Assembly: GCA_026874595.1 (NCBI GenBank)
Contig: CM049307.1
Span: 62,090,370-62,154,369, forward strand
Origin: Sipunculus nudus
Taxonomy: Eukaryota > Annelida > Sipuncula > Golfingiida > Sipunculidae
Reading direction: 5' to 3'
Length of the DNA stretch: 64,000 nucleotides
The notes under the pieces were generated by a model. That model did not search any database, was not told the origin of the DNA, and was given only the letters and a program-made list of their open reading frames with translations. Of this stretch, positions 20,620-57,600 are shown in pieces. How positions within the stretch are numbered: the stretch's first letter is position 1; each line of letters begins with the position of its first letter. The position numbers and the translations under genes are program-made.

Positions 20620-21780
20620 TTTCCCTACAGTGCGTCCATCTGTGAGTCTGTTTTGACACATTAACCCACATATCTTCGGAATCGTTTGACCAATCAGGAA
20701 AATTTTTTTTTAGCACAAATGTAGCCCTTGGATAGCTTTATAACATACACAAAAAATGGTGGCTACCTGCAACCTTTTTGCACGGCGTCCATCCATCTTA
20801 TTATCTGCCTCGTATCTCTGCAGTGGTTTGACTAATTCACCTTAAATTCGGCATAAATATACATTCTGGATAGCTTTCTTGATTTTATGACAGGTGGCGC
20901 CACCTACATTCCCATTCACGCTGCAGGCATCCATGCTAATATCTCTGGCCTGGTTTAACATACCTTTCTGAAATTTTGCATGTGTTTAGATCTCGCATAG
21001 TTCTTTATCATACATGAAAATGGTTGCACCACCTGCAACCATTTTTGCACGGCATCCTTCAGTTAGTCTGCCTTGGGTTAATCAATCGTATCTCTGCAGT
21101 GGTTTGGCATGCGTATACATCATGGATTGATTTCTTGATTTTATGACAGGTGGCTCCACCTTCATTCACATTGACGGTGCAGACATCCATGCTAATATCT
21201 CCGGACAAGTCTGACGTATCTTCCTGAAATTTTGCATGTGTTTAGATCTCACATAGCTATTTATAACAAACTGGTGACGCCACATGCATCCTTTCTTGCA
21301 CAGTGTCCATTTGTTTGTTTGCCTTGGGTTAAAATCACGCGTATTTTGACAGTGGTTTGACTTGTTCACCTGAAATTTTGCATGCTTATACATCCTGGAT
21401 AGTTTTCTTGATTTTATGACAGGTAGCGCCACCTTCATGTTCATGCTGCAGATATCCATGCTAATATCTCCAGACTCGTTTGACGTATTTTCCTGAAGTT
21501 GTGCATGTGTTTATATCTCACATAGCTCTTTATCATACAATAAACTTGTAGCGCAACCTGCAACCATTTTTGCGAAGTGTCTATCCCTTTGTCTGCTATG
21601 GGATAAAATCCCTCATATCTCGACAGTGGTTTGACTTGTCCACCTGAAAGTTCGCATGTGTCTACATCTTGGATAGTTTCTCGTTCAAATAACAGATTGC
21701 GCCACCTACAATCATGTTTATGTGGCAGACATCCATGCTTATATGTTACACATCTAACTCTATTTCCCCTTGCCACTCAA
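20620..21780. repeat. Tandem array, ~130-bp monomers in ~260-bp dimers, GGTGGCGCCACC core
   Basis: Landmarks recur in order: tggtttgac, gaaattttgcatgtgtttagatct, atagctttcttgattttatgacag, ggtggcgccacc and gcaaccatttttgcac. Palindromic cores lie near 20889, 21145, 21419 and 21689; gaaattttgca/gaagttgtgca lies at 20970, 21226 and 21495, giving spacings of about 256-274 bp. Each dimer has two related halves of about 130 bp. Unit length varies and is not a multiple of three, so the minus-strand open frames here are probably incidental. Confidence 0.8.
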
Positions 21781-22004
21781 TCCATGCCTCACTTCACCCA
21801 TTATACTCTGATTTTGGCAGATACACGTAGTCGCTTGTTGACTACCAGTATTCTAGTTTGAAAAGTACTACATAAATTTTCAATAACATCTGTGACATTT
21901 ACAATGCAAGTGCTACACACTCAAGAACAAGCGCCAATTACACAAAAATCACTCCTTGAAGTACTTGTATGTACGGAGCCCGGGAGACGACATGGTGAAA
22001 ATAT

Positions 22005-22215
22005 TTATTAATTCGTGCGCACGAATTACCATTCCGTGCGCACGAATTACTAATTTGTGGCCACGAATTACTAATTCATGCGCACGAGTTACTGATTCGT
22101 TCGCACGAATTACTCGGTGTAAAAAAATAAATTTCCAAGGTGGAAAAAATATTTATTAATTCGTGCGCACGAATAACTAGGTGTGAAAAATATATTTCCA
22201 AGGTGGAAAAATATT
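22005..22215. repeat. Left palindrome array of the 21972-24062 element
   Basis: Six copies of a 20-bp palindrome, centres varying between GCGC, GGCC and TCGC. Followed by a duplicated segment tttccaaggtggaaaaa plus atatttatt that links to a sixth palindrome at about 22157. Confidence 0.8.
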
Positions 22216-22364
22216 TATTTCAAAATGATTACAAAGAAGCCGATAAGGCTAATGCAACTGCTCTCCTGCATATAAATTAAAAGAAAGTGAAACATTAACA
22301 TGAATGTATATATTTATATATGAATGATCAGATTAGAAAAGTGCACATATATTCACACATGATA

Positions 22365-22366
<2 letters not shown>

Positions 22367-22402
<36 letters not shown>
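22367..22402. repeat. (TA)n microsatellite
   Basis: Pure AT run at the 3' end of the minus-strand retrotransposon fragment; it may have grown from its tail. Confidence 0.9.
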
Positions 22403-22407
<5 letters not shown>

Positions 22408-22409
22408 AT

Positions 22410-23080
22410 ATACTTTATTACAGATTGACATTCCACATTTATATATGGTAGGCGTAATACAATAAAAATAAACGTCTCAGTCCATATCGAGCATATCAAT
22501 TAGATTATAACCATCAGTCTTTCCAATTGAAAATAGGTATTGATTTAAGTAACAGGCACCTTGTCGTAACCGAGTATGGATAATTTCATGTTGACGATGA
22601 TTGTCGCAATAATAACTGTATATTTCTCGAGAGGCAGGGTTTAAATAGTCACGAACCTTTTCCTTAAAGGAATCGATTGATGCAGACTGAATTATGAGAA
22701 ACTGTTCAAAAGTTTGCAGGCTATTGAAAGGAAAGAAAAGAAACTGGAAGTAAAGGAAAGCGATAGTCTATCCGTGTGAACCTCGGTATCTTTAGCAAAT
22801 GCGATTTGCGCGGATTGTATGGGGATAGGCATGAGACAGCGTTTGAGTTAATATATTAGCAGATAATCTGGAGCTATTCCGTTAATCATTTTATAAAATG
22901 TGGATTGTATATCCAGCTCTCTTCTTAGTTTTATACTTGACCATTATAGTTCTTTTACCGTAGCTTCAGTGCTGGAAGTCGAGAGCGCTCCAGTACATGT
23001 TAAACATGCTTTCCGTTGTATACTCTCCAGCTGGTATAATGCTGACAGAACAATTGTTAAATATTAAAACACTACACACC
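22410..23080 (-). pseudogene. Decayed non-LTR reverse transcriptase 3' fragment
   Basis: Translating the minus strand in pieces gives QLESIQRKACLTCTGALS, RRELDIQSTFYKMINGIAPD and, further on, IHTRLRQGACYLNQYLF. These match in order the segments LESVQRKGMLLCTGATRW, VRRKVKIVTTFYKIIKN and LHTRLRTDCSTLNSTLF of the intact element at 36497-38311. Stops and frameshifts interrupt it. Its 3' end (AATAAA then (TA)n at 22367-22402) abuts the left arm of the palindrome element. A nested, dead retrotransposon tail. Confidence 0.7.
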
Positions 23081-23662
23081 AGTACTAAACGTATAATGAT
23101 TTGTACATACGATCTAAAACTTTCATAGAGAAATGGAATTTATAATTTTTTTCAAAATTTCCAAATGCTTATTTGCTTCAAACATATCATGTCATGTGTT
23201 CCTGTCAGGAAAGCGAATCCCAAATATGACATGAGAAGTTCTGTGAAGTTCATTTCACCTTGTTTATGTGTAATTTGCAATTTAGCATCATCGTCAATGG
23301 CGATTAAGAACTGTAACTGTAGTTACTTTGTGAAGCAAAATAACTGTTAAAAATTTCAGCCTAATCGGCTTTGTCTATAATAATGTTCCGATTACCAACG
23401 ATTATAAGGTTGGTTGTTGTTGTTATTATTTTTTTTTTTACCAGAGAAAAGCCTTAGAAATTTTCCACAATGCACGGCAACTAGTTCTGTGAGTTTTATA
23501 TTTATATTCTTTAAGTATCGCTTAAATCCCTTTCTATTTTCAATATACAGAGTTCCGAATTTGCCAAAGTAGGAAGTCACGGAACTGTCGGAAGGCGCTG
23601 GGCTCCATTTTGACAGCCTGTGTCTAGACTGAGCCGATGTGTGCTTGCTTCTCATTGGCTAG

Positions 23663-24035
23663 TAATTCGTGCGCACGAATTAACAACTCGTGCGCACGAA
23701 TAAGTAGCCAATAAGCTGAGCCAGCAACATAAGAGAGCTGTTCTCATTGGTCACTAATTCGTGCGCACGGATTCGTAATTCGTGCGCACGAATTAGTAAT
23801 TCGTGGCCACGGATTAATAATTCATACGCACGGATTAGTAATTTTGGCCACGAATTAGTAATTCGTGCGCACGGATTAGTTATTCGTGCGCAAGAATTAA
23901 TAAATATTTTTCCTCCCTAGAATTATATTTTTCACACCCAGTAATTCGTGCGCGCGGATTAGTAATTCGTTGCCATTAATTGGTTATTCGTCCGCACGGA
24001 TTAGTAATTCGTGCGCACGAATTAATAAATATTTT
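23663..24035. repeat. Right palindrome array of the 21972-24062 element
   Basis: About 13 copies of TAATTCGTGCGCACGAATTA-like palindromes in two blocks (23663-23905, 23941-24035). They are separated by an ataaatatttttcctcc linker that mirrors the left arm. Confidence 0.8.
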
Positions 24036-24062
24036 TCACCATGTCGTCTCCCACGCTCCGTA

Positions 24063-24480
24063 GGGGCATGGATGTACACAACAGAAAAAAAGATTATAGG
24101 TGCCACTACCATCTTATGTATGAGAAAAGCATCGAAGATGTATGGGCATGTAAAATTTTGGGCAGATATTTCAAATCACCCTTGACCTATGTTCACAGAT
24201 GTATGAAACCTTAAACAATTGCAGGTGGTGTCACAAGTCTTGTATATTACAAAGCTATCTGAGATATATAAATATGCCCATTTTCTAGCTGATATGTAAA
24301 ATCTCTCCGAAGAAGTAAGCAGGAATATACACTGCAAAAATTACTGTAGGTGGTGCCACCAGTCTTGTATAAGAAAGCTATCCAAGATCTAGAGATATGC
24401 ACAATTTCAGCATGATATATCAAGTACCTCCTATGAAATAAGCAGGGAAATATAGTATGCAAAAATCTTTGTACGTGGCA
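24063..24480. repeat. Diverged copies related to the GGTGGCGCCACC repeat
   Basis: Repeated segments gcaggtggtg(t/c)cac, agtcttgtata, aaagctatc and tatgggcatg/tatgcac occur twice with about 130-bp spacing. This is the same kind of landmark order as in the 20620-21780 array. They lie on the other side of the palindrome element, so that element may have inserted within or beside this repeat. Confidence 0.5.

Positions 24481-48241: not shown

Positions 48242-48300
<59 letters not shown>
48242..48300. repeat. (TA)n microsatellite
   Basis: Pure TA run left of the pogo MITE; its partner run at 48477-48529 lies on the right, so the MITE probably split one tract. Confidence 0.9.
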
Positions 48301-48303
<3 letters not shown>

Positions 48304-48475
48304 TGAAACCTCGTTGTGTCGAACTCACTTAAGTCGATAACCCCGCTCATATGGAAGTTACGGACTCGATATTCCGGTCAACTCTAGTTAAATTATAACA
48401 AAAAAAAACCCGCTTGTGTCGAACCTCGGATGTGTCGAAGTTTTCTGAGGATCCCTTCGACACAACGAGGTTTCA

Positions 48476-48478
<3 letters not shown>
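48301..48478. mobile_element. 178-bp pogo-type MITE between (TA)n tracts
   Basis: CAGTGAAACCTCGTTGTGTC at the left and its reverse complement with one terminal difference at the right (gacacaacgaggtttcactc), flanked by TA runs on both sides (48242-48300, 48477-48529). Same ends as the 1.06-kb element at 41847. It is absent from spacer copy 2. Confidence 0.85.
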
Positions 48479-48531
<53 letters not shown>

Positions 48532-53785: not shown

Positions 53786-56331
53786 ATATTACGAGATTAT
53801 GCTTTGTGCGATTCGGGGCGGGGGGGGGGGTATGTGAAAGACTGACACTGATCCTATTGTCCTCGGGTGCACAATAGGATTGTTCGGGGTACACGTGCGC
53901 TACTGGAACATAACAGGGCAGGGCAAGGAGGTTATTTAGTGTTTTAAATTTTATATATAATACAAAGATATGTTCCAGGATGCTCAATTAGCATATTGAA
54001 CTGATTTGTAATAGGGTCTTGGAAGCAGTGAACATATCAGTAGTATACATATGATAAAAATACACATATACTATGGAAATACACAATATACAAGGCAAAT
54101 ATACAATATAAAAGGCAAATATACTATACTATACTCATACCAAGTGGAATCCACTCGGTAAACTCACCGTGATGTAGTGGTAACGCCATGTCCCTCATCA
54201 CTGCAAAGCAGTGAGAGAACAACTACCTGAACAGGTAAGTCTGCCCAGCGGATCCTCGGGGGGGGGGGGGGGGGGGGGGTTGAGAGGGGCACGCTGAATG
54301 CTAGGTTTTAAAATATTTCAGGGTGAATTTGTTTTGATGGCGGTACTTGGAGAGAATTTCAGCTCTTGAGTTCAACAATGATCCAGGGGGGCCGTTGCTA
54401 TAAGGAGCTTTTCAGACAAGCAGAGATTACTCTTCCTAGTCCCTCAGAAGTAAGATGCTGCCTTGGCAGATATTTTCCAGGAGAGCTTGTAATTGATATT
54501 GTTGTCTTTTAGTGACCAAATGTGTTTAGACAGTTCAGTATTTTTAGCTTGGGATCTATTCCGAAAGGACTGCTTGTGGTTATTGTATCTTGTCTTGAAA
54601 TCACCTTCAGTACACCCTATGTATGTTTCACGTCATTGTCTGTTCTAACTGTTGCCTTATAGACAATGCATATCAGCTGACACTGACCATTCATAGGACA
54701 TTCGTCTTTTTTACGGCAGTTACATTGTCTTTGAGGTATATTCACAGCATTGTCAGTATTTAAAACCTTCATATTATGTTTGCTGATCAGGTTAGACATG
54801 TTGGGTAGACAGCTAGAGCTAATTTTCAAATTGTTCCTGTTGAATAACCTGTGGTACCTGTGATGTTTAGGGAAATGTTTTTCAACTAGTTTCATGAATT
54901 GTCTGCCAATGTTTGTTTTTACATGACGACTGTAGGGGGGATTGAACCATATTATTTTCCTTTTCCTGTTTCTTTTGCTTTTCACTGTGGGTTCAACATA
55001 TTTTAAGCTTTCTGAGAACCCGCTTTTCGCTAAAGCTTTGTCATACATGGTTTTGGCTTTCATAAATAGTTCTTTATTGCAGGAGTTGTCAGATACACGT
55101 TTGCTGATCATCATAGGTATCTGCCTAAATATAGCTGGGGGTTGATTGGATTGTGCGTGGATATAGAGCGGGTCATTGTTCGGTTTTATGTAAGGGTAGA
55201 AGATGTCATTTGGAGGTCAAATGTTACGTCTAAGAAATCTGTGCAGGTCAGGTTAGTTTCAATGGTTATTTTTAACCCAACATTGAAAAAGAGTTTGATC
55301 ATTTTCTTACGGGAGCTGTCTGCTTTGGGTCCAGACATGTTGGGGAAACAACCCAAACCGTCATCACGATACAGGCCTAGTGCATTTTCACCAAATTCCT
55401 TTTTCAACATATCTAGGATGTATAAACTAACAATTTCGCATACTTCAGCGCCATCAAAACTGCCCATAGTGACGTCAAAACTAGTATGATCTTTTATCAC
55501 CTAGGTGTTACCGTTGCTAAACAGTAAGCTTTTCCTGCTGTGCAGGGTGGTTTTGATAACATCCTCTGGAATGGAGACCATGGTTTTGGCAAATTTGAGG
55601 GCTTTCATGAGAAGATCTTCTGTGATCGAGGGGTAAAAGTCAACAATATCAAACTTCATGAACTTAGATTTTTGTTTCAGCTTCAATTTCTTGAACCAAG
55701 ATATTACCTGTGCGGTATTTTGCCACTGGTTGAGTTTGGTTTTCAGTCTCAGTTGGCTATTAAATTTTTCCAAGTGCTTTTTGCTAATGATACCTATTTC
55801 AGATTTTGCTGGATTTATCAATCTGCACTTGGGGTTTTGTTCAAAATTATCCTTGTGGTCTTTCAAAGTAATGTAAGCATTGCGCTCAGCCATGACTTCG
55901 ATGCGGTCTGCTAGGTTAAGGGAACCGGCTATTTCTTTGGCTTCTGTATTGATATTTTTACAGATATTTTTGTCTGCTTTTTTGTATGTCTTAGTGATGT
56001 TTTCTGTAAGAAGTTTATTGTTGTATTCTTTCGGCATACTGTACAGGTTGGTGGTCTTATCTGCCTGCACTAGGAGATTGTCAGATTGTCTGATTGTCTT
56101 GATGTCATTGGCCATTTGTCTCTGGAATGCATTGTGTGAGTGCTGGAATTCAATGTTCCGGACCATTTCATAGATATCACTTTCAAATGCCCTGAGGTGT
56201 TCGCTATGAGGGGGTGAATATGTGGTTTTGAATCCATAGTTTTGTTTAGCTGAAGTTTGACCAGGGTTTTCGAAATGGAATGCCTTCCATCGCATTCTCC
56301 GAAGTAGGCTTTCAACTTATATATATATTAT
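53786..56331 (-). mobile_element. Penelope-like retroelement (PLE), inserted in (TA)n
   Basis: The reverse-transcriptase/GIY-YIG region (see the pseudogene entry) lies on the minus strand, with a 3' region to about 53786. The copy is bounded by tatatatata at both sides (53778-53788, 56317-56331). The same locus in unit 2 (about 63035) lacks it, so this is an insertion. The 5' part appears truncated, since an in-frame stop and TA repeat precede the RT start. The 3' region has hairpins at 54139-54159 and 54198-54214 and a 22-base G run at 54258-54279. Confidence 0.85.
54301..56316 (-). pseudogene. PLE reverse transcriptase plus GIY-YIG endonuclease, broken
   Basis: Reading down the minus strand: SLLRRMRWKAFHFENP (start of the RT region), KDHKDNFEQNPKCRLINPAK, FMKFDIVDFYPSI (motif A), VTMGSFDGAEVCEIVSLYIL (motif B), LYRDDGLG (motif C; YRDD is typical of Penelope), FNVGLKITIETN, a linker with a Cys-rich segment (CNCRKKDECPMNGQC) and GIY-YIG pieces (YIGC, TEGDFKTRYNNHKQSF, KAEILSKYRH-like end). 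Lesions: TAG at 55501-55503 in place of an expected Trp, frameshifts near 55205, near 54640 (inside the YIGC start) and near 54385, and TGA at 54444-54446. PLEs copy RNA using this enzyme and cut targets with GIY-YIG; this copy cannot. Confidence 0.88.
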
Positions 56332-56563: not shown

Positions 56564-57600
56564 GGGGTACACGTGCGCTACTGGAACATAACAGGGCAGG
56601 GCAAGGAGGTTATTTAGTGTTTTAAATTTTATATATAATACAAAGATATGTTCCAGGATGCTCAATTAGCATATTGAACTGATTTGTAATAGGGTCTTGG
56701 AAGCAGTGAACATATCAGTAGTATACATATGATAAAAATACACATATACTATGGAAATACACAATGTACAAGGCAAATATACAATATAAAAGGCAAATAT
56801 ACTATACTATACTCATACCAAGTGGAATCCACTCGGTAAACTCACCGTGATGTAGTGGTAACGCCATGTCCCTCATCACTGCAAAGCAGTGAGAGAACAA
56901 CTACCTGAACAGGTAAGTCTGCCCAGCGGATCCTCGGGGGGGGGGGGGGGTTGAGAGGGGCACGCTGAATGCTAGGTTTTAAAATATTTCAGGGTGAATT
57001 TGTTTTGATGGCGGCACTTGGAGAGAATTTCAGCTCTTGAGTTCAACAATGATCCAGGGGGGCCGTTGCTATAAGGAGCTTTTCAGACAAGCAGAGATTA
57101 CTCTTCCTAGTCCCTCAGAAGTAAGATGCTGCCTTGGCAGATATTTTCCAGGAGAGCTTGTAATTGATATTGTTGTCTTTTAGTGACCAAATGTGTTTAG
57201 ACAGTTCAGTATTTTTAGCTTGGGATCTATTCCGAAAGGACTGCTTGTGGTTATTGTATCTTGTCTTGAAATCACCTTCAGTACACCCTATGTATGTTTC
57301 ACGTCATTGTCTGTTCTAACTGTTGCCTTATAGACAATGCATATCAGCTGACACTGACCATTCATAGGACATTCGTCTTTTTTACGGCAGTTACATTGTC
57401 TTTGAGGTATATTCACAGCATTGTCAGTATTTAAAAACCTTCATATTATGTTTGCTGATCAGGTTAGGATCAGGTGTTCGCTATGAGGGGGTGAATATGT
57501 GGTTTTGAATCCATAGTTTTGTTTAGCTGAAGTTTGACCAGGGTTTTCGAAATGGAATGCCTTCCATCGCATTCTCCGAAGTAGGCTTTCAACTTATATA
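56564..57600 (-). mobile_element. Second, internally deleted copy of the PLE
   Basis: ggggtacacgtgcgctactgg at 56564 repeats 53886 onward almost base for base, including the broken GIY-YIG frame, down to ctgatcaggttag (about 57466). It then jumps to aggtgttcgctatgaggggg, which in the first copy lies at 56195. Thus about 1.4 kb (about 54797-56194) is missing, with four extra bases (gatc) at the joint. The G run is shorter (56936-56951). Confidence 0.88.

Follow-up and report, generated by a model that had tools for sequence, protein, structure and literature searches.

A short palindrome repeated in tandem within both inverted ends of an element raises the question of what kind of mobile DNA this is, which enzyme moves it, and what the palindromes do. 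We addressed these questions for a 2,091-bp element (positions 21972-24062) in a window of 64 kb, meaning the whole stretch of DNA analyzed (C2:62090370-62154369 of the host genome, which comprises 1.43 Gb in 153 contigs). The window resembles animal DNA: GC content was 33-39% per 4 kb, with a LINE reverse transcriptase, presumably Penelope-like frames, and TA microsatellites present. The 20-mer TAATTCGTGCGCACGAATTA was found in 17 window copies at ≤3 mismatches, every one inside 22009-24024. Dinucleotide shuffles (n = 100) yielded 0 copies at the same threshold, so these matches lie far beyond chance. The ends of the element are inverted copies of one another, with 2 mismatches and a 1-base gap between the terminal 37 and 38 bases. 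They take the form TACGGAGC(CC/GT)GGGAGACGACATGG: each starts with TACGGAGC (then CC on the left, GT on the right) and GGGAGACGACATGGTGAAAA, and continues into arrays of TAATTCGTGCGCACGAATTA in mostly 21-bp steps, the spacer between monomers being mostly one C in the inward reading.

The initial annotation had estimated about 6 and 13 tandem copies in the two arms, which agrees with our count of 6 monomers in the left arm and 13 in the right, one of the latter being shortened by a deletion to 19 nt (one more divergent monomer included). Its statement that each copy is self-complementary was too strong: perfect palindromes make up only 4 of the 18 full monomers, and no more than one pair is broken in 8 of 18. 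From the terminus inward, both arms present array, linker, and palindrome in identical order (Table 1). Beyond the outer array, the linker contains GGTGT(A/G)AAAAA and AAAAATATTTATT, and further palindromes then come. Monomer order was more alike between the window arrays than in shuffled order (P = 0.03), a weak signal that would fit duplication of a whole arm. AATAAA occurs in the window arms five times outward and once inward; as a guess, the outward signals would terminate converging transcripts or shield the element.

Table 1. Features of the palindrome-array element, in window coordinates
Feature	Position	Strand	Remark
Left terminus TACGGAGCCCGGGAGACGACATGGTGAAAATATTTAT	21972..22008	+	leading TA belongs to the element
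Left outer array, 5 palindromic monomers, 21-bp steps	22009..22112	+	
Left linker CTCGGTGTAAAAAAATAAATTTCCAAGGTGGAAAAAATATTTAT	22113..22156	+	counterpart present in right arm
Left monomer no. 6	22157..22176	+	
Second left linker, inner limit of left arm	22177..22220	+	outward AATAAA inside
Interior filler, largely decayed LINE-like	22221..23584	-	common to other ~2-kb copies
Exon-1 relic of the large element's second gene (MEPSAFRQ.., hand-read)	23585..23608	-	ATG 23608-23606
CCAAT boxes, promoter-like stretch among palindromes	23654..23750	.	boxes at 23654-23658, 23708-23712, 23746-23750
Inner right palindrome pair, flanked by inverted CCAAT motifs	23663..23703	-	
Right second array, 7 monomers	23755..23899	-	one monomer of 19 nt (23839-23857)
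Right linker	23900..23941	-	
Right outer array, 4 monomers	23942..24024	-	
Right terminus, inward reading TACGGAGCGTGGGAGACGACATGGTGAAAAATATTTAT	24025..24062	-	

Across the host genome, the exact 20-mer was present 741 times (reversed control, 0), and termini with ≤2 mismatches numbered 252 + 220, 472 in all (reversed controls, 0). For close reading we took 19 loci around 20-mers on contig C1. Both ends were recovered by relaxed matching in 13 of the 19, with lengths of 180-2058 bp, which upholds the earlier proposal of a transposon with palindrome arrays in its inverted ends and satisfies the suggested check for genomic copies sharing both ends. Two loci were single-ended (L026 and L035), two others (L028 and L029) are opposite ends of one 22.9-kb copy, and L030 has an extra terminus 2 kb off. 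The window copy and 10 of the 13 double-ended copies have the termini TACGG..CCGTA; L020, L027, and L033 deviate. Among the 100 of 472 termini listed (all exact, C1 into C6), 26 convergent neighbors lay <40 kb apart and 2 close neighbors were otherwise oriented; the convergent pairs comprised 20 of 138-2298 bp and 6 large ones, at 22.9, 22.9, 23.5, 25.7, 29.3, and 34.3 kb. The palindrome-array element is a dispersed transposon family. Could the array instead be a satellite that invaded, or spread apart from, the transposon termini? Two of the 19 fetched loci (L023 and L034) are indeed a lone monomer without a terminus. However, at least one family terminus lies beside the array in 17 of 19, at odds with a plain satellite lacking transposon boundaries, and in complete short copies 23 of 27 arms have their first monomer at offset 38 (as do 4 of 4 large-copy arms). 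We regard the satellite reading as very improbable.

Target duplications were scored in 12 of the 13 double-ended copies, L033 being left out for its broken end. In 8 of these 12 short copies, an exact 6-bp duplication lies directly outside the terminal TA (GCCATG, CTTTGA, GAAACA, TATTTC, GTTAAG, TTGGTA, GTAAAC, and GGCAGG), where random 6-mers would agree at such distance with a chance of 0.00107 per copy. The remaining four match at 5, 4, 4, and 0 of 6 bases; in the last of these, L022, the duplication is 8 bp, CGTTACCA. The window copy is flanked by TGTATG and GGGGCA and has no target duplication, and a search for an empty site with the joined flanks, within the window, found none. With shifted borders, a 9-bp near-match of its flanks was considered as a Mutator-type duplication and rejected as near chance; genome copies then gave 6 bp. 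A TA target duplication had been expected at the outset, but the terminal TA forms the element's first two bases, so a TA duplication is not what is seen. We give almost no credence to membership in Tc1/mariner, in a relative of PHIS, or in any other family that duplicates TA: the termini start with TA as such a family would require, yet six more bases are duplicated outside it in those 8 of 12 copies rather than the 2-bp TA of Tc1/mariner, and the partner transposase described below is of integrase type. The 8- to 10-bp duplication of Mutator-type foldback elements is likewise not the rule here, with 6 bp in 8 of 12 copies and 8 bp in 1 of 12.

The large convergent pairs pointed to coding relatives. 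The copy on C5 is 22,908 bp long, has the exact target duplication TAATTC, and carries 15 and 18 palindromes in its arms. About 600 bp inside its left end, an open reading frame constitutes a transposase exon, which matches the Pfam integrase core PF24764 (E = 2.6e-16); the next open stretch matches the same model at E = 1.5e-5, just under the cut-off. Matches of the transposase to rve (4e-4) and to the NCBIfam models IS481 (6e-5) and IS3 (1.6e-3) are also under the cut-offs, and at the N-terminus a Clr5 match is sub-threshold only (E = 0.012). The exon gave 102 matches in the host genome, 42 of which were entered in distance counts; second pieces, opposite-oriented fragments ~10-13 kb inside large copies, and the weakest matches were left out. 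All six transposase copies of 96-100% identity on C1-C5 start 553-722 bp inside an exact terminus, including an exon at C4:74.5 Mb that has a TAG and one at C4:96.2 Mb that is split in two matches. The exon lies inside 5 of the 6 large pairs among the 100 of 472 termini listed. It was sought and not found in the 34.3-kb pair (C5:85.9 Mb), and for 9 divergent transposase loci taken from the stronger matches on C1-C5, no exact family terminus lay within 3 kb among the exact termini listed. The large copies on C1 and C5 agree at 96-98% in most of the stretches compared and at 91-93% within some portions of the arms, which gives the large family a young appearance. In the C1 large copy (22.9 kb), the duplication TAAAAC matches only with one extra base (C).

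The large copies also contain smaller relatives. A 900-bp family member (L039:2494-3393) is nested in the C5 large copy; it contains part of the transposase end in reversed orientation (93% over 647 bp), and its CTTATCA duplication includes an extra C. Similar fragments, with TAG stops, occur ~10-13 kb inside all five exon-holding large pairs. Separately, at C7:8326839-8361918, two transposase matches stand head to head 445 bp apart, and further fragments are present; this region is possibly an inverted duplication of large copies.

At its right end, the C5 large copy contains a second gene that reads inward, with the start MEPNALRQLQFNDFLRERGLSEETISSIENEK before GTCAGT and a 559-residue open frame further in; we infer that the two are spliced together. 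The product had no Pfam match at E up to 10, and comparison with PDB sequences, NCBIfam, and PHROGs returned nothing useful. A resemblance to HECT-type ligases was considered but gained no support from the same Pfam search, and we assign the product no function. Using the first 182 residues of the 559-residue frame as a query, we obtained 41 matches in the host genome, which grouped into 37 loci once second pieces were left out. A transposase match lay ≤60 kb away at 33 of the 37 loci (4 were without), and in 33 of 33 such cases one nearby transposase match converges with the second gene. This convergent pairing also holds in families that are merely 35-51% alike. In the C1 copy, the second-gene frame has a TAG inside. 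The repeated occurrence of this converging partner hints at a possible second component of transposition in IS3EU, the superfamily to which the evidence below points. In the C5 large copy, arrays with CCAAT boxes lie directly upstream of the starts of both genes; the arm is both a transposon end and, in this copy, a gene-upstream region.

We compared these features with known systems, drawing on the accessible parts of the cited papers. IS3EU elements have TA..TA termini and usually 6-bp duplications, and GingerRoot elements are mostly alike and form one lineage with IS3EU (PMC10045372). In fungi, IS3EU elements bearing TET genes have 6-bp duplications, terminal inverted repeats of >30 bp, and ends of the form TAYGG..CCRTA, and their opposite-oriented gene encodes an alpha-kinase (PMC12730594). 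The family described here has TA..TA termini, the 6-bp duplication in 8 of 12 short copies and in the C5 large copy (the window copy is without one), and, in the large partner, an integrase-core DDE transposase related to IS3/IS481, which is absent from the window copy. It resembles the accessible descriptions of IS3EU/GingerRoot in its TACGG start (fungal TAYGG), inverted ends of >30 bp, integrase-core transposase, and opposite-facing second gene. It differs from them in its phased 20-bp palindrome arrays, a partner gene without a Pfam match, and parents of ~23 kb. ISL2EU elements, in contrast, have an AT duplication and a THAP transposase with a YqaJ partner (accessible text of PMC4482050); here the duplication is 6 bp and the transposase matches the integrase core. 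The copies share termini, 6-bp duplications, and arrays in the same register, with a transposase exon inside the end of the large members and a second gene converging on it. We consider it highly likely that the window element belongs to the IS3EU/GingerRoot type of cut-and-paste transposons and, being non-autonomous, is mobilized in trans by a transposase that its ~23-kb relative supplies, with the palindromes as candidate dimer sites. A family left nameless in the initial annotation can in this way be named.

The superfamily and the existence of repeated sites in transposon ends are known; new is the combination of phased palindromes, their apparent dual use as a gene-upstream region, and the large two-gene parent. 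The accessible parts of the IS3EU accounts (PMC10045372, PMC8268682, and PMC12730594) hold no mention of palindrome arrays that we found, and literature searches covering open papers found no published report of these arrays. In viral contigs, the 20-mer, the tandem pair, the terminus, and two further patterns were not found. A scan of bacterial and archaeal genomes returned two bacterial contigs with short operator-like pairs, judged unrelated. These are tandem TTCGTGNNCACGAA pairs at L001:2235-2270 and L002:1210-1241, and a relationship to the family is improbable.

How the 2-kb copies arose is suggested by what they keep of the large element. The window right arm, CCAAT boxes, and exon-1 start align with the right end of the C5 large copy at 82% over 461 bp, and 23585-23660 is 86.8-88.2% identical to both large copies. 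The second gene's CCAAT stretch and exon-1 start are kept in the window copy. We had initially taken the MEPSAFRQ.. reading in the window for a chance frame, a view dropped once the large copy gave the same stretch and start. When the interior (22220-23660) was compared by blastn (E = 1e-4, simple sequence masked) with large-copy sequence covering the C5 copy plus the two ends of the C1 copy, only 23585-23660 matched. In tblastn against the LINE open reading frame of the window, the interior matched at 39.6% (23150-22857) and 31.6% (22683-22513). Other ~2-kb copies are 74.8-86.4% identical to the window copy in long matches. With the right end of the large copy kept and the rest largely LINE-like, the 2-kb family appears to be an internally deleted, LINE-filled derivative. 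A large copy would have lost its middle and gained LINE sequence, presumably in that order.

The arrays are regular in spacing. In 177 monomers (≤5 mismatches) from 14 short copies, the window copy included, 105 of 108 steps of 20-22 bp are exactly 21 bp; longer steps include 22 of 62-64 bp and 12 of 71-73 bp, with 8 steps outside these three classes. In the two transposase-bearing large copies, every one of the 39 short steps measures 21 bp, and the longer ones fall at 62-64 bp (14), 73 bp (2), and 85 bp (2). At 10.5 bp per turn, 21 and 63 bp are whole turns and 73 bp is near seven, so that nearly all sites face one way. Regular monomer spacing could also reflect recent growth of the arrays, not selection.

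Monomer variation has a different basis from that first proposed, namely that changes concentrate at the center as if the outer half-sites were under selection. The center is indeed variable in short copies: a linked central CG-to-GC swap occurs in 20-23% of the 177 monomers, and the GGCC form in 26 of 177. However, position 5, in the outer half, is changed in 38% of the short-copy monomers, and the center of large-copy monomers is constant, GCGC in 61 of 61. These 61 monomers are not independent, since the two copies are so alike. Their main variable base is position 5, T in 29 and C in 32; T prevails where a monomer opens an array (19 of 22) and C in the monomers after it (29 of 39). The remaining positions account for 12 changes in total, half of which (6) affect position 4. 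Within the window copy, the 4 central positions of the 20 received 10 of the 36 changes (binomial P = 0.17). The position 5 and central-swap variants look like inherited monomer subtypes, and the argument for half-site selection therefore fails.

A different role for the arrays would be as DNA structure, with cruciforms or snap-back arms that recombine, as proposed for foldback elements; the long inverted ends made of tandem repeats have the foldback form. Single-strand folding of the arms is far below that of shuffles (z = -8.3 and -13.2), and the window arms are 88% complementary over 97 nt. However, any palindrome array automatically folds strongly. Outside the central pair, a changed pair in the short copies was broken in 196 cases and still complementary in 2; this near lack of compensatory change argues against selection for pairing. 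The cruciform suggestion of the initial annotation gains no support from these counts, and we judge a structural role improbable.

Under the favored reading of the palindromes as candidate protein sites in the ends of a transposon moved in trans, each would bind a dimeric helix-turn-helix protein, for which the N-terminus of the transposase is the most likely candidate. The 21-bp steps, together with linker steps of 62-64 bp (~3 × 21) and steps of ~73 bp (~7 turns) in the CCAAT stretch, would put nearly all sites on one helix face. This phasing could allow numerous dimers to occupy an arm, thereby labeling the ends and assisting their pairing. Partial precedents exist in other superfamilies, again as far as the accessible texts describe them. 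Galileo and Foldback of Drosophila share long inverted ends with internal tandem repeats, and extra sites within the Galileo end repeats were shown to bind the THAP domain of its transposase (PMC3688188). Galileo differs in belonging to the P superfamily, and the word "palindrome" does not occur in PMC3688188. Tetris is similarly a non-autonomous foldback element with tandem repeats in its ends and a variable middle, but it has 220-bp repeats and 8- to 10-bp duplications and is assigned to Mutator by its authors (PMC4079207). In Hermes, paired BED domains of the transposase cooperatively bind a quasi-palindrome of subterminal repeats, and exact phasing matters; unlike the present family, this hAT element of another superfamily has two palindromic pairs per left end and no perfect-palindrome arrays (PMC10368747).

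The arrays could alternatively serve a transcription factor of the host, as operators or promoter elements that are retained because they drive both genes of the large element. Their placement before the two gene starts of the C5 copy, along with CCAAT boxes, fits such a role, and CpG observed/expected in the window arms (2.25 and 1.90, compared with 0.65 for the whole window) is like that of an unmethylated promoter island. Against it, the arrays persist in transposase-less short copies down to 180 bp, and the first monomer's mostly constant offset from the tip is a better fit to end recognition. We consider a host-factor operator unlikely. Binding of the palindromes by an element-encoded protein may itself also regulate both large-element genes, given where the arrays stand relative to the two starts in the C5 copy. 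A more specific version, which we put forward tentatively and hold to be possible rather than probable, is a two-in-one device: the transposase, or an obligatory second-gene product, would use the phased palindromes as binding sites in two ways, assembling an end complex of many dimers and switching the element's own two promoters. If so, array length would set the mobilization strength of a copy and the tightness of autoregulation in its parent, and the second gene would be a core component of animal IS3EU elements. IS3EU, a little-studied group, gains a family that looks young and combines large copies holding two genes, numerous short passengers, and an unusually clean repeated candidate binding site. 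The general question about foldback ends, whether their tandem repeats serve end recognition, gene control, or both, becomes testable.

Several other repeats were observed in the window. Direct repeats of ~265 bp and ~123 bp (20732-21744 and 24220-24478) flank the element and are distantly related to each other in opposite orientation. Open frames at 54617-56316 (minus strand) and 57291-57593 have partial copies nearby and no Pfam match above the cut-off; they are presumably Penelope-like. A MITE-like element at 2538-2813 lies within a TA microsatellite; its inverted repeat spans 58 nt (95%), and tandem repeats of ~28 bp lie inside it. A second MITE-like element, at 48250-48529 in an AT microsatellite, has a 74-nt inverted repeat that includes AT runs and is 99% complementary.
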